Shown here: one piece after another, positions 3,166 through 48,896 of the stretch
How positions within the stretch are numbered: position 1 is the first letter of the stretch
How the letters are laid out: each line of letters opens with the position of its first letter
Source of the DNA: Oscillospiraceae bacterium
GTDB taxonomy: Bacteria; Bacillota; Clostridia; Oscillospirales; JAAYXM01
DNA: 54,202 nucleotides
Direction: 5' to 3'
Assembly: GCA_017435965.1 (NCBI GenBank)
Contig: JAFSEA010000085.1
Span: 1 to 54,202 of the forward strand
Made by a program: the position numbers and the translations under genes
The notes under the pieces: generated by a model
What the model was told of the DNA's origin: nothing
What the model saw: the letters and a program-made list of their open reading frames with translations, nothing else
Databases searched by the model: none

Positions 3166-4239
3166 ATGTCTGAAAAATATACTTCAAAATGGAGTAAAGC
3201 AGAATTACAGGTTAAGTTCGAGCGTGGTCGTAAGGCTATTGCGGACGGTGTTAAGTTTCAAATGGGTTTCTTGCAGCCTGATGGCGGATATATATGGGAT
3301 GGCTATCGCTGTGATGCATTTCATAAGCAGGCTTACAGCTGGAACTTGGTTGGAGAAAATGAAGCCGCACATCGCTTGTTGAATTGGATTAGGGATAACA
3401 GAATTCGTGAAGACGGTTCTTTGATTTTGGTTCCCACAGCTAAAGAAAAAGGAATGACGATGAATCCGCCACAGAGTCCGGACGATGCGAACATCGACAT
3501 TTATAAACATTGCTGGACAATTCAGGGGGCACATCGATTGGGCCGCTTTGATGTATCATTTCCGATATATAACTTTTTAAAGACCTGTCAGCGCCCATGC
3601 GGAGGTTTCCCGTTGGAAAACTCAATGGATCACAGCAGAGCAATGACAACAGCGTGGGCAGGAGTTACGGCAATATACTTTAATGATTTGGAAATGGCAC
3701 AGAAATGTATGGATTGGTGTTTAGATGTTCAGGAGCAGAACACAGATCCGGAGAAATATTATTTCTCAACAGATGATGCAGGTAAGATAATTACAGATAA
3801 TGGAAATTATATTGATATTCATAAGACAAAACAGTGCTATTGGGAAGTTGGTTTCTCAATGATTCTTGCAAATCGTATGTACCAAATTACGGGTGACAAG
3901 AAGTATCTTGATGCTGTAGGCAAGTGGCTCGATTTTCTTTGGACTTGTGCAGAGGATGTTTGGAGCTATTGGGGAAGTGGAAAGGCTGCTCAGGCAGCGG
4001 CCATGTATTATTCCTTTACGGGTGATGAGAGAGGAATTGATGCTGCTGTAAGCTTTATTGACTTTGTTGTAGAGACACAGGTTAAGGTGGCGGATAAAGA
4101 CGGAAAATATGCAGGCGGACTCTGGTATGACGATGAGCCCGATATTCTTTTGATTTATGTAGACCATGCTGCTTGCTTCTCTGGTTGGGTACTCGACAGC
4201 ATTTCATATATTGAGTCTCGTATGGGATTGTTAAAATAA
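3166..4239 (+). CDS. alpha/alpha-toroid (terpene cyclase-like/six-hairpin fold) protein, unknown reaction
   Basis: The 357-residue protein has no signal peptide and shows repeated helical hairpins with glycine-rich turns: FLQPDGGYIWDG (about 35-46), CQRPCGGFPLENSMDHSRA (about 143-161), the CYWEVGFSMILANR region and YAGGLWYDDEPD near the C-terminus. This pattern fits the alpha/alpha-toroid superfamily, which includes terpene cyclases, glycoside hydrolases of six-hairpin type and sugar epimerases. Conserved Trp, Asp and His residues in these loops suggest an enzyme. I cannot name a family. It is the first gene of a ROK-repressed operon; the class III aminotransferase follows 24 nt later, so the two probably act on one small molecule, perhaps an amino sugar. 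GGAGGG lies 6 nt before the ATG. Confidence 0.6.
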   Translation: MSEKYTSKWSKAELQVKFERGRKAIADGVKFQMGFLQPDGGYIWDGYRCDAFHKQAYSWNLVGENEAAHRLLNWIRDNRIREDGSLILVPTAKEKGMTMNPPQSPDDANIDIYKHCWTIQGAHRLGRFDVSFPIYNFLKTCQRPCGGFPLENSMDHSRAMTTAWAGVTAIYFNDLEMAQKCMDWCLDVQEQNTDPEKYYFSTDDAGKIITDNGNYIDIHKTKQCYWEVGFSMILANRMYQITGDKKYLDAVGKWLDFLWTCAEDVWSYWGSGKAAQAAAMYYSFTGDERGIDAAVSFIDFVVETQVKVADKDGKYAGGLWYDDEPDILLIYVDHAACFSGWVLDSISYIESRMGLLK

Positions 4240-4263
4240 TAAATATAGTTAGGAGAAATGATT

Positions 4264-5709
4264 ATGGGCACAAAAATTCCGCAGGCTATGCAAGCTTGTA
4301 TTCCGGAGAATATGAAGCCGTTCATTCCGGAAACGATTGAAGAATTAAAGAGTTATGCAGTAAACCACATTTGTCCGCACTATATGTCAAATGCGGACCT
4401 TGAACGTGATCCGAAGGTTTATGTTAAGTCGGAAGGCAATTACATATATGATGTGGAAGGTAAAAAATATCTTGATAGCTTTGCTTCTATTTTGACGACA
4501 ATGTGCGGACATAACAACACCGCGATTATTGAAAAGATTAAGGCTCAGTTTGATATTCTTGACTTCTTCCCGAATTTTGGTGATCATTACTGCATTCCGA
4601 TGGTTGCGCTTTCAAAGAAGCTTACTGAGATTGCACCCGAGGGTCTCACATCGTTCTTTTATGTAAATTCAGGTTCTGAAGCAAACGAAACCGCAATTAA
4701 AGCCGCTTGGGCTTACCAACTTGAGAGTGGATTTAAAAATCGCACGAAAATCATCCATCGCCGCGGATCATATCACGGCACAACTGTTGCAGTAACTGCG
4801 GCTTGCGGACTTCCGTGGTTTAATGAAAAATATCCGACAGATTCAAATATGCTGGAAGCTCCGCCGTGTGACTGCGACCATTGCCAATGTGACTGCTCAA
4901 AGTGCTATGGTACTTGCGGCATGCAGTGCCTTAAGGATACAGAAGAACTCATATTAAAAGAGGGACCCGAAACAATAGCAGGCTTTATTATGGACCCGCT
5001 TCCGGGCTCAAATTCGGGATATCCGATTGCTCCGCAGGAATATATGGACGGTATCCGCGCTTTGTGTGATAAGTATGGTATTCTTTTGATTTTTGATGAA
5101 ATTCAGTGCGGCTTCGGTAAGTCAGGCGAATGGTTTGTTGCAAACAACTACAAGGTAACTCCCGATCTTCTCACTACGTCAAAAGCATTAACAAACGGAT
5201 ATGTTCCTTTGGGTGTTGTTATGATGAAGCAAAAGATTTATGACAGATTCCGCACAGGAACAAGTGAGTTCAGAAGCGGATCAACCTTCGGTGGGCATAA
5301 CGTTGCTTGTGCTGCTGCAATTGCAACCATTGATTATATCCAAGAAAACGATCTTATTGCGAAGTCAAAGGCACTTAGTGACCGTATGGCTGCAGGGCTT
5401 GACAAGCTTCAGAAAGAGCATCCGATCATCCTCAGACATAAGCATATGGGAATGATGTTCTCTATTGAGTTGACATCGAAGAAGGGCGAATTTGTCCCGT
5501 TTGAAAATCCAGGTGCTGCAGGGGCTTTTGTCAATGCTTGGTGCTATGAAAAAGAGGGCGCAATTATCCGTAACAACGTATATAACAATCGAGATAACGT
5601 TGTTTACTGTCCTGCACTTACGTTTTCGGAAGAGATGATAGATAAGCTGCTTGATGCTCTTGATAAGGCATTTACTGCTGCTGAAAAGGAATTTGACGTA
5701 AAGGCATAG
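4264..5709 (+). CDS. class III PLP aminotransferase with an eight-cysteine cluster
   Basis: The 481-residue product has class III (ornithine/GABA type) aminotransferase motifs: NSGSEANE (135-142), SYHGTT, the PLP-contacting FDEIQCGFGKSG with D278, and the lysine of TTSKALTNGYVPLG (K307) that forms the Schiff base. Between residues 202 and 222 it carries eight cysteines in 21 residues, starting CDCDHCQCDCSKC. Several class III enzymes have a CxxC pair here, and mammalian GABA transaminase holds an Fe-S cluster through such a pair, but this density is unusual. I chose ATG 4264 because AGGAG at 4251-4255 is 8 nt away; ATG 4258 would be too close. It is second in the ROK-controlled operon. The amino donor and acceptor are unknown. 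Confidence 0.85.
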   Translation: MGTKIPQAMQACIPENMKPFIPETIEELKSYAVNHICPHYMSNADLERDPKVYVKSEGNYIYDVEGKKYLDSFASILTTMCGHNNTAIIEKIKAQFDILDFFPNFGDHYCIPMVALSKKLTEIAPEGLTSFFYVNSGSEANETAIKAAWAYQLESGFKNRTKIIHRRGSYHGTTVAVTAACGLPWFNEKYPTDSNMLEAPPCDCDHCQCDCSKCYGTCGMQCLKDTEELILKEGPETIAGFIMDPLPGSNSGYPIAPQEYMDGIRALCDKYGILLIFDEIQCGFGKSGEWFVANNYKVTPDLLTTSKALTNGYVPLGVVMMKQKIYDRFRTGTSEFRSGSTFGGHNVACAAAIATIDYIQENDLIAKSKALSDRMAAGLDKLQKEHPIILRHKHMGMMFSIELTSKKGEFVPFENPGAAGAFVNAWCYEKEGAIIRNNVYNNRDNVVYCPALTFSEEMIDKLLDALDKAFTAAEKEFDVKA

Positions 5710-7598: not shown

Positions 7599-8399
7599 AT
7601 GGACAATCGCCCTATAGGCGTTTTTGATTCGGGACTGGGCGGACTTACCGCCGTTTCCGAGATTATGAAAATTCTCCCGGACGAAGAAATAGTATATTTT
7701 GGTGATACCGCAAGAGTTCCATATGGCACCCGTGGTACCGATACGATTATGCGTTATGTCCGTGAAGATATAGATTTTCTCAAAAGCTTTGATATAAAGG
7801 CCGTTGTTATGGCTTGTGGTACTGCAAGTTCTGTGTCTCTTCCCTTTATACAGGACGAATATGACATACCCATAATCGGTGTGGTGAGACCTGCCGTGGA
7901 AGCGGCGATTCGTGCGACAAACAACGAAAAGATTGGTATAATAGGAACGAGTGCCACCATAAAGAGCCGTTCTTATGAAAGGGAAATACTCAAAAAACTT
8001 CCGGGCTCGGAGATTCAAACTGCGGCGTGTCCTCTATTTGTTCCTCTTGTAGAGAACGGAAGAACAGATCCTGATGATATTGTGCTTTATACAATGGTGG
8101 AAGAGTATCTCACGCCGATAAAGAAATCAGGTGTAGATACGCTTATTATGGGATGCACACATTATCCCATAATTGAAAGGGCAATAGCAAAATTTATGGG
8201 TGATGAAGTTGCGCTCATCAATCCGGGGCGTGAGGCGGCAAAGTTTTTAAAGGAAAGCGAAAATACAGAAAAAAGAGTGGGCAAAGGAAAATATAGCTTT
8301 TTTGTGTCTGATGACAGGGAAGGTTTTATTGCAAATGCATCAAAATTCCTGGGAGGAAGACTTTCGGGAGAGGTATCACTTGCCCCTATGGAAAGATAA
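7599..8399 (+). CDS. murI: glutamate racemase with Asn-to-Gly change beside the first catalytic Cys
   Basis: Makes D-glutamate for peptidoglycan without a cofactor, using two cysteines as acid/base. The 266-residue protein keeps FDSGLGG (D10, S11), YFGDTARVPYG, IGTSATIKS and the second catalytic GCTHYP (C186, H188). The first cysteine motif, usually ACNTAS, reads ACGTAS (C73, G74, T75); that Asn normally contacts the substrate. The change may be typical of this lineage or may alter activity. The gene starts 3 nt after ddl, so the two are co-transcribed and probably translationally coupled. Confidence 0.93.
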   Translation: MDNRPIGVFDSGLGGLTAVSEIMKILPDEEIVYFGDTARVPYGTRGTDTIMRYVREDIDFLKSFDIKAVVMACGTASSVSLPFIQDEYDIPIIGVVRPAVEAAIRATNNEKIGIIGTSATIKSRSYEREILKKLPGSEIQTAACPLFVPLVENGRTDPDDIVLYTMVEEYLTPIKKSGVDTLIMGCTHYPIIERAIAKFMGDEVALINPGREAAKFLKESENTEKRVGKGKYSFFVSDDREGFIANASKFLGGRLSGEVSLAPMER

Positions 8400-8410: not shown

Positions 8411-8851
8411 ATGAAAAAGGACGTTATAATAACAATACGAGGTCTTCAGAATTTTGAAGATGCGGATAACGACAGCATCGAGCTTGTAACAAGCGGTCGC
8501 TTTTATGAAAAGGGAGGAAGCTATTATGTTTCCTATAAAGAGAGCGAACTCACAGGTCTTGGCGATACTACAACAACCGTTAAGATTGAGGACGACAAGG
8601 TGACGGTGATGCGCTTCGGAGAGCTTCAGACACATATGATTTTTGAAGAGGGACAGAAGCATATATCATACTATGATATGGGATTCGGTGCTTTGACGGT
8701 AGGTGTAAGCACGAAGAGCATAAACAAACAGCTCAGCGAATCCGGCGGAAGTATGAAGATAGATTATGCGATGGAGATAAACAACGCTGTTGCAGGTGAA
8801 AGTGCTCTCTTTATGGATATAAGAGAAACTGCGGCAGACGTTGCAAACTGA
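8411..8851 (+). CDS. DUF1934/YwiB-like beta-barrel protein
   Basis: The 146-residue protein matches the DUF1934 (YwiB) family by length and pattern: MKKDVIITIRGLQ start, a YYVSYKESELTGLGDTTTTVKIE segment (about 37-60), MRFGELQTHMIFEEGQKH and a closing KIDYAMEIN. The family folds as a small lipocalin-like beta barrel of unknown function. It lies 11 nt after murI in the same operon, with AAGGTGG as ribosome-binding site, and slightly precedes the S41 protease, whose start lies 19 nt downstream of the stop. Neighbours suggest a role at the cell surface or in wall metabolism, but that is inference only. Confidence 0.8.
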   Translation: MKKDVIITIRGLQNFEDADNDSIELVTSGRFYEKGGSYYVSYKESELTGLGDTTTTVKIEDDKVTVMRFGELQTHMIFEEGQKHISYYDMGFGALTVGVSTKSINKQLSESGGSMKIDYAMEINNAVAGESALFMDIRETAADVAN

Positions 8852-8870: not shown

Positions 8871-10358
8871 ATGAAAAGAGGCTTTAAGATAACGGCTCTT
8901 CTCTTGGCGCTCTGTATGATGCTTTCCTGCTTTGCTTTTGCGGAGGAAGTGGATTACGGGGAAAAGCTTGACGAAGCGGTGAAAATATATCGTGAAAACG
9001 GGCTCTATGCCGATGAGGAAACAGATTATGTACGTGAGGCACTTATAGAGATGTTCGAGGAAGATCCCGAGCTTTTCTATGAGCTTGTAAACAGAATTTA
9101 CAGTCGTGAGGACAGATATTCATATTATATGACTCCCGAGGAGTATGAGACAAGCTTTTCGCTGGAGAATACAATGGTTGGTATAGGTATCGTCATATCC
9201 ACATCAGATGATGGATATCCGCTTGTACAGCAGGTTTCAAAAGGTCCTGCAATGACTGAGGGGATTCTTGCGGGAGATAAAATCTGTGAGGTTGACGGAA
9301 ACTCTGTTGCCGGATACCTTCCTGCCGAGCTTGGAACTCTTATCCGCGGAGAGGAAGGAACTACGGTAAATATCAAGGTTATCAGAGGCGAAGAAAAGCT
9401 TGATTTCACCATTAAACGTGCAAAGATTACCGTTTCGGAAGTCACATCCTATAACGTGACGGATGAAATCGGATACATAAAGCTTGACCATTTCAGCGGT
9501 ATAGATGCATTCATTGATTTTATGGTAGCTTATGACGGATTTGAGGAGAGTGGAGTAAACACAATCATCCTCGACCTTCGGGATAACCCCGGCGGACAGC
9601 TCGATTGTCTTATAAATCTTATGGACAACATTATTCCGGAAAAAGAAGTTCCGTATCTTATGACGTGGCAGTCAAAGCCGTTGAGGGTAAATACATTTTA
9701 CTCCGAGGGTTTTGGTTGGGAGTTCAATAAGTTTGTCATTCTTGTAAACAGTAATACCGCTTCGGCATCCGAGATTATGACAGGTGCACTTCAGGACCTT
9801 GGTTATGCAGTTGTTGTAGGTGAGCAGACTCACGGAAAAGGAATGGGTCAGCGCCATATAGTCACAAAGGACGGAGACGAGGCAGTTGTCACGGGGCTTG
9901 AACTCAAGCTTCCCGTGAGCGGAAGATATGACGGCGTGGGAATTACTCCCGATTATGAGGTCAAGATGAAGGTCACACCTTATAAGCTTCCTTACCTCAC
10001 TCCGCTCAAATCAAAGTATGATGCCAGCAAGATAAAAACAGAGAATGTAAAGGCTCTTGAAGAAAGACTTTCGTGCCTCGGATATTTCTATGCAACTCCC
10101 GATGATGAATGGGACGAAAAAACTCTTCGTGCGGTAAATCTTTTCTGCAAGGAGAACGGACTTCCGATGTCAAATTCAATGTGCAAGTGGGATGTAATCG
10201 TGAAGATTGATGAAGCGGCGAAGAATCTTGAACATAAATATGTCGTAGAGGATGCACCGATGGAAAAAGCGATAGAGCTTGCAAAGGAATATGCCGCATC
10301 CGGAAAAAAAGCAGAGCGCGTAGACGGCGACCTTATAGATTTCAGTTCGGGAAGATAG
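8871..10358 (+). CDS. secreted S41 (C-terminal processing) protease with a C-terminal PG-binding-like domain
   Basis: The 495-residue product has a signal peptide (about 1-24), a helical prodomain, a PDZ domain (about 95-175, with VGIGIVIS and GDKICEVDG) and an S41 catalytic domain. The Ser/Lys dyad is in NTASASEIMTGALQD (S298) and THGKGMGQ (K323), at the spacing of 25 residues seen in CtpB/Tsp. After the protease comes a helical segment resembling a peptidoglycan-binding domain (VKALEERLSCLGYF, KTLRAVNLFCKENGLP, about 385-430). I set the start at ATG 8871, after GGAGGATAAG; an upstream in-frame ATG at 8841 would spoil the signal peptide. It closes the ddl-murI group; a probable role is trimming a wall or envelope protein. 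Confidence 0.88.
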   Translation: MKRGFKITALLLALCMMLSCFAFAEEVDYGEKLDEAVKIYRENGLYADEETDYVREALIEMFEEDPELFYELVNRIYSREDRYSYYMTPEEYETSFSLENTMVGIGIVISTSDDGYPLVQQVSKGPAMTEGILAGDKICEVDGNSVAGYLPAELGTLIRGEEGTTVNIKVIRGEEKLDFTIKRAKITVSEVTSYNVTDEIGYIKLDHFSGIDAFIDFMVAYDGFEESGVNTIILDLRDNPGGQLDCLINLMDNIIPEKEVPYLMTWQSKPLRVNTFYSEGFGWEFNKFVILVNSNTASASEIMTGALQDLGYAVVVGEQTHGKGMGQRHIVTKDGDEAVVTGLELKLPVSGRYDGVGITPDYEVKMKVTPYKLPYLTPLKSKYDASKIKTENVKALEERLSCLGYFYATPDDEWDEKTLRAVNLFCKENGLPMSNSMCKWDVIVKIDEAAKNLEHKYVVEDAPMEKAIELAKEYAASGKKAERVDGDLIDFSSGR

Positions 10359-45475: not shown

Positions 45476-45558
45476 GCGGGCGTGGTGGAATGGCAGACAC
45501 GTTGGTCTTAGGAGCCAATGTCTTCGACGTGTGGGTTCAAGTCCCACCGCCCGCACCA
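45476..45558 (+). tRNA. tRNA-Leu(UAG), CCA encoded
   Basis: Acceptor arms GCGGGCG (45476-45482) and CGCCCGC (45548-45554), discriminator A, encoded CCA (45556-45558), anticodon loop CTTAGGA (45507-45513) with anticodon TAG (45509-45511), a class II long variable arm and a GTTCAAG T-loop. The integrated element begins directly downstream; the integrase gene points toward it, so its 3' end is the probable attachment site. Confidence 0.97.
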
Positions 45559-45651: not shown

Positions 45652-46695
45652 TTAACTATAGAAAGTAGTCAAAAAGTAGTCAGAGAGTTTGCGCGCCGAT
45701 TCTTCGCGTTTACGGTCGGAGAGATGGGTATAAATGTTAAGTGTGGTGTTTATGTCGGCGTGGCCGAGCCACACTTGTGCTGTCTTAACATCGATTCCGG
45801 CATCGAAGAGAATTGTGGCATAAGAATGGCGAAGCTCGTGAGGGGTGCAGGAGATTCCAATTTGTTTTTTGTATCGATTCCACATTTTGGTGATGTGGGA
45901 ATCTCCGAAGAGCTTGCCCTTCTCGTTAAGAAAGATATACTCCTGCGTCATGAACGGAGAGAGGAGGGCGATGAGCTTGTCTGTAATCGGAATAGTCCGG
46001 ATGCCGGCCTCCGTCTTAGGACTTGGCTTTATGCGAGGTGCGCTGTTGATCCATTCTACGGTTTTATTTATTGAGAGTGTTTTATTCTCAATATCGATGT
46101 CTTGCGGGGTCAGAGCGAGAGCCTCACCTCGTCTGCATCCGGTTGTCAGATAAGTGTAAGCGAGAATGCCGATGAGAGAATCTGTTGATGCGCAGATCTT
46201 CTGTTCATCTTCCTTGGATGCACTTTGACGCTTCGTTGAAGACAGATTCTTCGGAAGACTTACATCGGAGCAGGGACTATATTCAATGTCCTGGTTGATT
46301 TTTGCGTGCCTGAAGATGAGGCGAAGGACGGAGAGACGGTTCTTGACTGTCTTCTTGGAATAGCCTTTCTCTTCAAGGTCATCGAGATAGGCGAGCACAT
46401 GAGCCGGCTTAATCTCGGAGATCTTCCAACCTGAGAAGTAAGCGACTGCTGCATCATAACAAGGTTTATAACCTTTTGCCGTATTACTCTGGATCTTGCG
46501 GTTTGAGTCCATCCACCGTTCAGCGACGGCCTCAAAGAGAAGAGAATCTTCGGATTCCCGGCGGAGGTTAAGCATCTGAGAATTAAAATCCTGAATGGCA
46601 GCTTTTTCGGTTTTTGCGGAACTGTAGAGGAGCTTGCTCTTTCCGCTTGGAAGAGTTATTCGCTTTTGCCATCTGCCGTCGGGACGTTTTTTCAT
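45652..46695 (-). CDS. int: tyrosine-recombinase integrase
   Basis: Integrates and excises the element at tRNA-Leu. The 347-residue protein has an N-terminal arm-binding domain (KKRPDGRWQKRITLPSGKSK), a SAM-like core-binding domain (about 52-150) and the catalytic domain with R188 (TTGCRRGE), K227, H286 and R289 (TPHELRH), H312 (WLGH) and Tyr322 (NIYTH). The start at 46695 has AAAGGAG 10 nt upstream; the frame is open to an ATG at 46761, which also has AAGGAGAACC but at 14 nt. It is last in the leftward repressor operon, and a candidate antisense RNA is encoded opposite its leader. Confidence 0.95.
   Translation of the reverse strand: MKKRPDGRWQKRITLPSGKSKLLYSSAKTEKAAIQDFNSQMLNLRRESEDSLLFEAVAERWMDSNRKIQSNTAKGYKPCYDAAVAYFSGWKISEIKPAHVLAYLDDLEEKGYSKKTVKNRLSVLRLIFRHAKINQDIEYSPCSDVSLPKNLSSTKRQSASKEDEQKICASTDSLIGILAYTYLTTGCRRGEALALTPQDIDIENKTLSINKTVEWINSAPRIKPSPKTEAGIRTIPITDKLIALLSPFMTQEYIFLNEKGKLFGDSHITKMWNRYKKQIGISCTPHELRHSYATILFDAGIDVKTAQVWLGHADINTTLNIYTHLSDRKREESARKLSDYFLTTFYS
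45662..45681 (+). repeat. tandem AGTAGTCA repeats at the integrase 3' end
   Basis: AAAGTAGTCA occurs twice in a row with AA between, within the last codons of int (encoding the TTFYS end). Such short direct repeats close to a tRNA attachment site can be arm-type integrase binding sites, but coding constraint is an equal explanation. Confidence 0.35.
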
Positions 46696-46719
46696 TTTTA
46701 AGGTTCTCCTTTCTTGGGG

Positions 46720-46749
46720 TTGACAAAAAATGCGGAAGCGGGTTATAAT
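46720..46749 (+). promoter_or_regulatory. perfect promoter pointing away from int, for the antisense RNA
   Basis: TTGACA (46720-46725), 18-nt spacer, TATAAT (46744-46749). Both hexamers are exact, on the strand opposite int and the membrane-protein genes. No protein gene starts downstream of it within 2 kb on this strand. Confidence 0.8.
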
Positions 46750-46755
46750 GTCCGC

Positions 46756-46856
46756 GTTCATTTATTTTAGCGGTTCTCCTTGATTGTCGCATAAGGTTTG
46801 GCGATTTCCTTATGCGAGAGACAGCTCTGCTTCGGCAGGGCTGTTTCTTTTTTATT
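46756..46856 (+). ncRNA. candidate ~100-nt antisense/regulatory RNA opposite the integrase leader
   Basis: From the promoter at 46720-46749, a transcript would have an unpaired 5' region containing GGTTCTCCTT (46772-46781), a 10-bp perfect hairpin (46787-46796 with 46808-46817) and a classic terminator: a 10-bp stem with UUCG loop (46821-46844) and T-rich tract (46845-46856). GGTTCTCCTT is complementary to AAGGAGAACC, the ribosome-binding site of int (46702-46711), and is also exactly antisense to a second copy of that site before ATG 46761. On the opposite strand neither hairpin is followed by T residues, so they do not serve the leftward genes. Never seen named by me; experimental proof is missing. 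Confidence 0.6.
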
Positions 46857-47265
46857 TGTCGGGGTCGAGGTTGTTTTTGAAACATCTTACAGCAAGGACA
46901 GATGCGAAGACAAGTTCGATAACGGTCATAATGACAGAGGATAGTGAGGTTGAACAGAGAAGAGCCCATACATCCCAAATCATTATAGCGAGGGTAAAAA
47001 CAAACAAAGAGATTCTCCCGGAGAAACGGAGGGCGACAGACAGAAGGAACAAGTTTGTCAAATAACAACGTAACGCACAGAGGGTGTAAGGCAAGAAATC
47101 GAAGAATCCCTGAGTGATTTGGTTGTACCAAGAAAACAGCATTGAATAAAAAGGAACTTCGGCGAGATAAGCAAATAAAACGAGAACCAACCAGTGAGCA
47201 ATTATCACTCCAAAGAAGATAAGAGCATAAAGCAAGAACTTGCCGATACCTTTAAGTGCAAACAT
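46852..47265 (-). CDS. small multi-pass membrane protein, lysogeny cassette gene 1 (nearest int)
   Basis: The 137-residue protein has about four TM segments (roughly 5-32, 45-62, 72-94, 98-125) and a charged end (KNNLDPDK). It matches no family I know. Start ATG 47265 follows AAAGGAGTTGTTTTT, a leader nearly identical to that of the next upstream gene. It is fourth in the leftward operon after the CI-like repressor and ends inside the terminator of the antisense RNA. Co-expression with the repressor suggests a prophage-state function such as superinfection exclusion; this is inference. Confidence 0.6.
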   Translation of the reverse strand: MFALKGIGKFLLYALIFFGVIIAHWLVLVLFAYLAEVPFYSMLFSWYNQITQGFFDFLPYTLCALRCYLTNLFLLSVALRFSGRISLFVFTLAIMIWDVWALLCSTSLSSVIMTVIELVFASVLAVRCFKNNLDPDK

Positions 47266-47321
47266 AAAAACAACTCCTTTTATAATGCGTTCATGAAATA
47301 GATTGCTTTGATAGTAATCAT
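47263..47321 (-). repeat. duplicated gene junction with a phantom 13-codon frame
   Basis: CAAACATAAAAACA(A/T)CTCCTTTTATAATGC occurs here (47259-47288) and at 47803-47832 with one mismatch over 30 nt. At 47807 it is a real junction, the stop end of gene 3. Here the same DNA lies between gene 2's stop and gene 1's start, and still encodes a peptide ending MNAL-stop (frame from ATG 47321 back to TAA 47280, MITIKAIYFMNAL), like gene 3's YILNAL end. This looks like a scar of gene-cassette exchange. Confidence 0.55.
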
Positions 47322-47809
47322 TCATTTGTTTCTACATTTTTCGTTAAATCTTCATTTTCGATTGATTCTTTTGTTACAGAAAAACGATAATTCTTTATTT
47401 TAAATTCAATGGGGAATTGTGTTTGTAATAGTTCATGGATTATGTGACGGTCTTCGATAAAACGCAAAAGAACAAAAAAAGATGAAACAACTGCAAAACC
47501 AGAATATAATAACAAAGAACCTGTGAAAATTGTTGAAAAGTCAAAATGATAGGAAAAAATGTACGCACATATAGACATGACAATAGTGTGCGCTATAAAA
47601 GCTACACGAATTGAAAATTTATCTGTCAACCAAGAAATTAAAGCAAGGACTAAAAGGGGAGAAAGATAAAGAAAATTGAAGAAGTCGCCGAATAGAAATG
47701 ATAAAAAGGATGAGAGGAGAAAGAGAGATGTTACCAAGCAAGAAAGAAAAAGTGCTTGAAGCGTGTATGTAAAAATTCTTTTCATAACTTTAAAAACAGT
47801 TTCAAACAT
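47318..47809 (-). CDS. small multi-pass membrane protein, lysogeny cassette gene 2
   Basis: The 163-residue protein has about four to five TM segments in its first 115 residues (MKRIFTYTLQALFLSCLVTSLFLLSS, LSPLLVLALISWL, VAFIAHTIVMSICAYIF, IFTGSLLLYSGFAVVSSFFVLLRF) and a charged cytoplasmic tail of ~45 residues (EDRHIIHELLQTQ..., ENEDLTKNVETNE). I recognise no family. Its leader AAAAGGAGATGTTTTT repeats that of gene 1. Base composition is visibly A/T-rich relative to the core genome, suggesting recent acquisition. Confidence 0.6.
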   Translation of the reverse strand: MFETVFKVMKRIFTYTLQALFLSCLVTSLFLLSSFLSFLFGDFFNFLYLSPLLVLALISWLTDKFSIRVAFIAHTIVMSICAYIFSYHFDFSTIFTGSLLLYSGFAVVSSFFVLLRFIEDRHIIHELLQTQFPIEFKIKNYRFSVTKESIENEDLTKNVETNE

Positions 47810-47823
47810 AAAAACATCTCCTT

Positions 47824-48216
47824 TTATAATGCATTTAAAATATAAAAAACGGCGATGGCGATGTTTGCAAGAATGCCAATCTCTGCGATTACAGTGAACG
47901 TAATATCATAAGCAAAAAGCCGATCGTAATTCTCGTAATCTTCTTTTTTAAAAATTTTGAATATGATTGAAGCAATAATGCTGTTCAAAGCAAAATTAGC
48001 GATGATGGTACACGGAATAAAAAGAAGAGCCAACCAGAAAGAAGCGGTTATAGCAAAATGGATAATAAATGCCAATAATGATAAAAGATTAAGAAAGGAA
48101 AAGATGCTGATAATTTTCTTCATCGTTCTGCTTGAACCGGTAAAATGGTCAGCGGCATAATGTTGTACAGACATAAAAAAGCTGAAGAAAATAAATAAAA
48201 AGAAATAAAGATACAT
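47824..48216 (-). CDS. small multi-pass membrane protein, lysogeny cassette gene 3 (next to the repressor)
   Basis: The 130-residue protein has four TM segments (about 1-15, 35-57, 60-88, 105-128), with a short charged loop FKKEDYENYDRLFAYD between the last two. No recognised family. Start 48216 follows AAAGGAGTTGTTTTT and lies 21 nt after the repressor stop, so it is almost certainly transcribed with the repressor from the lysogenic promoter. Its C-terminal codons YILNAL are part of the duplicated junction found again before gene 1. Confidence 0.6.
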   Translation of the reverse strand: MYLYFFLFIFFSFFMSVQHYAADHFTGSSRTMKKIISIFSFLNLLSLLAFIIHFAITASFWLALLFIPCTIIANFALNSIIASIIFKIFKKEDYENYDRLFAYDITFTVIAEIGILANIAIAVFYILNAL

Positions 48217-48237
48217 AAAAACAACTCCTTTGATGAT

Positions 48238-48846
48238 TTAAAACTTGGCGCGGAGTTCTACTACGCGGCCGAGGATGCGGATGGGTTTTGACTCAATTTC
48301 TTCAGGTGTGAAGAACATCGGGGAATGCGCAGGGTTCAGAGAGACCAGGCTGATTCCGTTTTCGTGTTTAACAAATTTCTTGCAGGTTGCGTCATCGCCA
48401 TTGACAAGAACGATTGCAATCTGGCCGCTTTCAACGTCTGATTGCTGACGGACTATAACAACATCACCTTCGCTTATTTTTGGCTCCATGCTATTGCCGT
48501 GGATGCGGAGAGCGAAGAACTCACCGGTGCGCGACATATCTTCAGATATTTCCTCGTAGTCGAGAATGTTTTCAACTGCAGAGATTGGAATTCCTGCGGC
48601 GACGTTCCCGAGTACGGGGATTTTTTTTGCTTTTGGAGAAGGTGCGACATCTTCAGAGTTACCAAGGAGATAATCAACAGAGACGTTGAAGTAAATTGCA
48701 AGCTTGGAAATTGTCTCAAAGTTAGGTTCCCTTATTCCGCTTTCCCAGTTTCCGACAGTTCCTTGGGAAATACCAAAATCTGAAGCTAATTTGCTTTGGG
48801 ATACGCCTTTGACTTCACGAAGTTTTTTTAATTGTATTCTAAACAT
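48238..48846 (-). CDS. CI-like repressor with S24 autocleavage domain
   Basis: Keeps the element silent. The 202-residue protein has an XRE helix-turn-helix (about 7-60, SQSKLASDFGISQGTVGNWESG) and a LexA/CI-type S24 peptidase domain: cleavage site Ala-Gly (VAAG, 82-85), Ser119 (GNSMEP) and Lys156 (ATCKK). Such repressors cut themselves in the presence of RecA filaments, so DNA damage would induce the element. The start at 48846 lies only 22 nt from the -10 of its promoter and overlaps operator O1. It heads the leftward operon with the three membrane genes and int. Confidence 0.95.
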   Translation of the reverse strand: MFRIQLKKLREVKGVSQSKLASDFGISQGTVGNWESGIREPNFETISKLAIYFNVSVDYLLGNSEDVAPSPKAKKIPVLGNVAAGIPISAVENILDYEEISEDMSRTGEFFALRIHGNSMEPKISEGDVVIVRQQSDVESGQIAIVLVNGDDATCKKFVKHENGISLVSLNPAHSPMFFTPEEIESKPIRILGRVVELRAKF

Positions 48847-48867
48847 AATATCACTCCTTGTGATATT
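48847..48867. promoter_or_regulatory. operator O1 of the CI-like repressor
   Basis: AATATCAC (48847-48854) and GTGATATT (48860-48867) form a perfect palindrome with spacer TCCTT, at the start of the repressor gene. Related half-sites ATATCAC occur at 48871-48877 and 48922-48928, and GTGATAT at 48956-48962 and GTGATAA at 48977-48983, spreading over both promoters. Confidence 0.85.
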
Positions 48868-48896
48868 AACATATCACAAAAGGCAATAACTGACAA
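48868..48896 (-). promoter_or_regulatory. repressor (lysogenic) promoter
   Basis: On the minus strand, TTGTCA (48891-48896), 17-nt spacer ending TGA, TATGTT (48868-48873). An ATATCAC half-site overlaps the -10, which fits autoregulation. Confidence 0.65.

Follow-up and report, generated by a model that had tools for sequence, protein, structure and literature searches.

The stretch of DNA analysed here, hereafter the window, comprises 54,202 nt and contains a prophage that begins beside a tRNA-Leu gene (45476–45558, plus strand), directly downstream of recR; the contig ends at 54202, within the prophage. The tRNA-Leu gene, the likely attachment site, adjoins the gene for a tyrosine integrase (int, 45652–46761, minus strand, assigned by profile match), the real start of which is probably at 46698 (MKKRPDGRW...). 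The other half of the attachment site was not found; a second match to the tRNA 3′ end corresponds to another tRNA-Leu. The gene order on the minus strand is CI, M3, M2, M1 and the integrase. The CI-type repressor (48238–48846) carries HTH_3 and Peptidase_S24 domains and is presumably the first gene of the lysogenic transcript, and a Cro-like HTH gene lies divergent from it on the plus strand. M3 (47824–48216), M2 (47318–47809), and M1 (46852–47265) encode orphan proteins of 130, 163, and 137 residues, respectively, exactly the positions and lengths given by an earlier sequence-only reading of this DNA; an alternative M1 start, an ATG at 47325, would yield 157 residues. For the integrase, similar AAGGAGAACC leaders (repeat D6) are seen ahead of each of two possible starts, 46761 and 46698, and a divergent plus-strand promoter sits between the two.

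The gap between the CI stop codon and the M3 start is 21 nt (48217–48237), and no terminator-like site was found on the minus strand from CI to the end of M1. M3, M2, and M1 are each preceded by the leader AAAGGAG(T/A)TGTTTTTATG (48214–48231, 47807–47824, and 47263–47280, respectively), of which no further copy was found in the 2.65-Mb genome. The leaders are part of a 25-nt minus-strand repeat with 92–100% identity: relative to the reference copy before M1 (47262–47286), the copies before M2 (47806–47830) and M3 (48213–48237) are 96% and 92% identical, respectively, and the M2/M1 pair extends to 42 nt at 86%. A promoter-like site that could serve CI and the cassette was assigned by its consensus match at 48868–48896 (minus strand, TTGTCA-17-TATGTT), and an operator-like palindrome, TGTGATAT-TAAC-ATATCACA (48859–48878), was read from the sequence between CI and the Cro-like gene. 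Given this anatomy, namely CI, the 21-nt gap, the cassette's own ribosome sites, and the lack of a minus-strand terminator, expression of M1–M3 in the lysogen is to be expected, and M3–M2–M1 are most probably lysogen-expressed cargo. The sequence-only reading had described the gap, the near-identical leaders, and the missing terminator in the same way, and had proposed expression with the repressor, which the anatomy leads us to expect as well.

The membrane nature that had been attributed to the three proteins agrees with Kyte-Doolittle analysis, which predicted three membrane segments for M3 and four each for M2 and M1; M2 also has a polar C-terminal tail of ~35 residues. The cassette had been described as A/T-rich, which holds for M2 and M3, the two genes with the lowest GC content in the window (30% and 32%, respectively), but not for M1, whose GC content (41%) is only slightly low. 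In 2000 shuffled versions of the region, none contained more than one open reading frame of at least 130 residues on the coding strand.

As had been stated before, M1–M3 belong to no known family: searches of Pfam, NCBIfam, PADLOC, and PHROGs returned chance-level matches only, and no homology to the superinfection exclusion proteins Sie2009, Ltp, and SieA was detected in Pfam, PHROGs, PADLOC, or phages. A pattern search of IMG/VR gave no match, tblastn against phages gave nothing except one 0.7 match, and comparison with PDB sequences gave nothing of note. M2 had no match in plasmids, and M3 had none in an exact-peptide scan of 85,000 species, a method that reaches close relatives only. In genomes of the same order, no credible relative was found for M1 (245 genomes), M2 (197), or M3 (245); the best matches (E ~5e-4 to 1e-2) were judged to be chance, as they covered partial hydrophobic stretches and often contained stops or belonged to far longer frames. 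Common ancestry of the three proteins, which the leaders had suggested, was rejected, since the M1/M2 and M3/M2 comparisons show no protein similarity. The proposed structure prediction and remote-homology search thus yielded no homologues: the single-sequence model of M3 was usable (pLDDT 82, three long helices) and had no matches in a fold search, and the model of M2 was poor. These results indicate that the function of M1–M3, for which no family or relative was found, cannot be read from homology.

Loci were gathered around relatives of the repressor and the integrase and from IMG/VR, and the content between CI and a same-strand integrase, the arrangement in which the cassette lies in the window, was listed; gene calls, membrane-segment counts, and the integrase profile were obtained with our own simple scripts. 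The contents of the 31 CI–int slots were all different, and the gap ranged from 57 nt to ~2.9 kb. Sister phages with a related CI (50–58% identical) hold other genes in the slot. The L113 slot contains PD-Lambda-1 (E = 1.4e-165), a DUF4041 membrane-anchored protein with a validated anti-phage role (PMC9519451), and that of Faecalibacterium phage Aster a SoFic-like Fic protein (E = 8.7e-30). Mrr-type nucleases (Mrr_cat) were found in the slots of L026, L105, and L148, an RNase_T and HSDR_N pair in L107, and lipoproteins in L026, L075, L178, and L200. Membrane proteins of 176 and 227 residues (GC 30–32%) occupy the slot of L073, and further membrane-protein sets those of L044, L137, L168, L178, and L205. 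Several slot genes have no defence link (zinc-ribbon proteins, HTH genes, and unknowns). Outside the 31, the second prophage of the same genome (L069) carries Fic between a short HTH gene and int. PD-Lambda-1 and the Fic, Mrr-type, RNase_T, and HSDR_N proteins are counted here as known or candidate anti-phage genes. In L068 (7787–9236, minus strand), tandem repressor-like HTH genes with 3′ halves 85–90% identical lie ahead of the integrase.

A membrane segment was predicted for 32 of 54 slot proteins versus 85 of 371 neighbouring genes (p = 1.4e-7), and the enrichment persisted without the genes of the window (29/51, p = 1.4e-6). Slot genes were also lower in GC than the neighbouring genes (p = 2e-13). 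Related elements do carry differing cassettes in this position, with membrane proteins over-represented. The locus type itself is not new, since such a slot has been published for lactococcal phages (PMC7693887) and an antiviral defence hotspot between cI and the integrase has been published for P2-like phages of Vibrionaceae (Rousset et al., 2022; PMC9122126). M1–M3 are most probably exchangeable prophage cargo of an accessory slot whose type is already known, and what is new is the orphan load itself.

Fragments of the CI 3′ end occur in the slots of three relatives. A 102-nt repeat of L073 (94%; 8661–8762 and 9307–9408), made up of the terminal ~80 nt of CI and the leader, recurs between cargo genes 1 and 2. 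L137 has 40 residues of the CI C-terminus (72.5%) separating cargo genes (ORF 4183–4446), and L026 has 39 nt of CI 3′ sequence (79%) after its first cargo gene (7700–7738). The 5′ end or the middle of CI, used as controls, gave no such matches in these loci. The repeats in L068 mentioned above comprise entire tandem HTH genes and are a distinct case. These results suggest that cargo accretes behind CI by recombination; in the simplest reading, new cargo would arrive directly behind CI via a crossover, and the former CI end would stay as a scar. In the window, the repeats are no longer than the leader, and a clear CI 3′ scar is absent. Its M3/M2 junction, including the leader repeat before M2, aligns with the CI stop region (TTTTAAAT...AAAGGAGxTGTTTTTATG) with a score above 200 of 200 shuffles. 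The three near-identical leaders may be traces of the same stacking, in which case M3, M2, and M1 would each formerly have lain directly behind CI.

The sequence-only reading had mentioned neither the tRNA-Leu gene beside the integrase nor two plus-strand features that lie immediately beyond the end of M1, a promoter and a structured RNA. The predicted sigma-70 promoter (46720–46749, plus strand) is divergent from the integrase and matches the consensus at 12 of 12 positions (TTGACA-18-TATAAT). It precedes a presumed small RNA (46756–46855, plus strand, with a deduced start) of two hairpins, the second of which is a strong terminator (stem 46816–46849) whose end coincides with the M1 stop codon (z = −5.6). 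In the collected loci, a strong opposite-strand terminator was found ahead of 13 of 32 integrases, compared with 34 of 888 other genes (p = 5e-10), and a promoter and terminator at a fitting distance ahead of 9 of 32 and 13 of 888, respectively (p = 8e-9). A terminator pattern derived from part of the members (GGTGTTGGTxGCrCC followed by a T-run) was present at 61 IMG/VR loci, in 36 of which a tyrosine integrase on the opposite strand was the nearest gene in front, mostly 75–230 nt away, whereas a control terminator pattern gave 8 matches, none of them by an integrase.

The RNA equivalents are found in L069, L071, L073, L078, L111, L113, L114, L133, L141, L155, L072, and L143 and in 36 of the loci L156–L216, and they adjoin differing cargo (Fic, PD-Lambda-1, Zn-ribbon, and others), with the terminator located where the last cargo gene ends. 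The group was characterized on 38 distinct members with RNAs of 61–129 nt, which are partly interdependent and include a viral subset chosen by its loop. The promoter spacer is 17 nt in 34 of the 38, with a scoring that favours 17 in ties, and the mean fold z is about −5 against mononucleotide shuffles, terminator included. An inverted repeat between the −10 region of the promoter and the 5′ part of the RNA was detected in 21 of the 38 (p < 0.05; e.g., L143, L211, L202, and L072) and could represent a hairpin of the int leader or a protein site; the 5′ hairpin of the RNA is too variable to be aligned across members. The window shows the layout of the group, namely a promoter immediately before a tyrosine integrase and pointing away from it, and an RNA of about 60–115 nt with a terminator. 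Its RNA differs in having a UUCG loop instead of GUUGGUxGC and a spacer of 18 nt, and in lacking a significant inverted repeat with the −10 region, and is therefore regarded as a positional equivalent rather than as proven kin. Rfam 15 gave no match at the RNA element in the window or its relatives, and no description of an int-divergent RNA was found in the part of the literature that was covered. The Rfam RNAs Gut-1 and FuFi-1, whose function is not known, occur near integrase loci in L141 (6478–6552), L168 (5572–5778), and L178 (7436–7684), all on the plus strand.

The RNA is complementary to the int leader of a transcript reading through from CI and the cargo, and would thereby probably keep int silent in the lysogen. 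The promoter and structured RNA at the slot end point away from int and would probably hold it off while CI and the cargo are on. It is also possible that the RNA acts in the opposite way, by freeing an int start that a leader hairpin would otherwise occlude. RNA-level control of recombinase genes by antisense or leader RNA is familiar from lambda int retroregulation and IS10 RNA-OUT. The control proposed for 46756–46855 resembles these systems in acting on an integrase or transposase gene, and differs from them in that the RNA is divergent from the int start, has its own predicted promoter and terminator, and recurs at many int loci. As a tentative proposal, somewhat more apt to fail than to hold, the slot boundary may represent an undescribed and widespread class of antisense small RNA, divergent from the int start in temperate phages, which would act on the long lysogenic transcript to silence or gate int. 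Genes lodged between the CI 3′ end and the RNA terminator could then be expressed along with CI but without integrase, and M1–M3 would be one such load.

The slot resembles the Vibrionaceae hotspot in being a variable cI–int interval in which related phages carry different defence systems, whereas here the phage group is another one, CI is of the S24 type, the load is three orphan membrane proteins, and the borders are defined by the CI 3′ end and the divergent RNA. Sie2009, SieF7/2AB, and Ltp are exclusion genes of lactococcal and streptococcal lysogeny modules with membrane-bound products that are expressed from the prophage (PMC7693887, PMC3952083). M1–M3 share with them the small, here predicted, membrane products and the location in the lysogeny module, where the Sie genes also lie between repressor and integrase. 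They have no sequence relation to these proteins, which are anchored by one helix or a lipid, with an exposed domain in the Sie2009 and Ltp types, whereas M1–M3 are predicted to cross the membrane three or four times, with M1 and M3 almost wholly membrane-embedded. SieA of P22 is a three-helix inner-membrane exclusion protein of 162–164 residues (PMC10883804), which M2 resembles in size and in its predicted polytopic inner-membrane type; unlike M2, however, it lies at another genome position and suffices alone in P22, and no homology was detected.

M3–M2–M1 would thus be cargo of a prophage integrated beside the tRNA-Leu gene, and since the slot of sister prophages holds recognised anti-phage genes, M1–M3 are plausible immunity genes. 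By association, we consider the leading function to be an immunity that protects the lysogen from other phages and acts at the cytoplasmic membrane, with slightly better than an even chance of being correct. The route could be a disturbance of DNA entry, as with Sie2009, Ltp, and SieA, or a membrane-acting abortive system. The sequence-only reading had proposed exclusion proteins that block DNA entry; such a block may be one form of immunity among others, and analogy is what speaks for it, with no homology or fold match. In lactococcal phages, genes between integrase and repressor confer superinfection exclusion, but three equivalently placed genes of phage Dub35A provided no resistance (PMC7693887), a precedent that, together with the missing matches and the slot genes without a defence link, stands against immunity. 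Those same slot genes are compatible with a lysogenic conversion unrelated to phages, in which the slot merely tolerates lysogen-expressed genes and M1–M3 alter the envelope or physiology (bacteriocin immunity, small-molecule export, or surface change). Small polytopic membrane proteins would suit transport or immunity-protein roles, but M1–M3 match no transporter or bacteriocin-immunity family and the slot often holds known or candidate anti-phage genes, which makes this explanation rather unlikely. Short-lived orphan cargo, that is, A/T-rich DNA recently caught behind CI and expressed yet neutral, with little or no function, would account for the absence of relatives in ~200–250 genomes of the order and for the low GC, T-rich DNA readily yielding hydrophobic frames. 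Against it stand the three uninterrupted frames in a row, each with a proper ribosome site and a conserved leader, and the occurrence of two or more such frames in 0 of 2000 shuffles; we regard it as unlikely.

The strong promoter and structured RNA that converge on M1, together with the hydrophobicity of the proteins, could instead point to a membrane-acting toxin set under the plus-strand RNA or to a holin-like lysis set. The type I toxin-antitoxin form is rejected because the RNA equivalents track int across different cargo and not a toxin gene. Usual type I toxins are moreover smaller than the 130–163 residues of M1–M3. No holin family was matched, and the genes lie in the lysogeny module, not in a late lysis module; a toxin or lysis set is thus very improbable. 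A role as accessories of the lysogeny switch, in which the membrane proteins would tune CI or the integrase, for example as a membrane-held sensor, would fit the predicted co-transcription with CI and the position before int. The sister phages with a related CI carry other genes there, however, which indicates that M1–M3 are dispensable for the switch and leaves this role with hardly any likelihood.

Overall, short membrane proteins in repressor–integrase slots constitute a large and barely annotated pool of candidate prophage immunity genes, which homology-based defence finders miss, and the M3–M2–M1 locus offers a clean three-gene unit for testing. The borders of the slot, the CI 3′ end and the terminator of the divergent RNA, allow cargo to be mined from genomes independently of homology. 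What was not expected is the presumed antisense RNA that bounds the slot, and its class is apparently undescribed. If this RNA does gate int, this would explain how an operon that continues into int can take up lysogen-expressed cargo.
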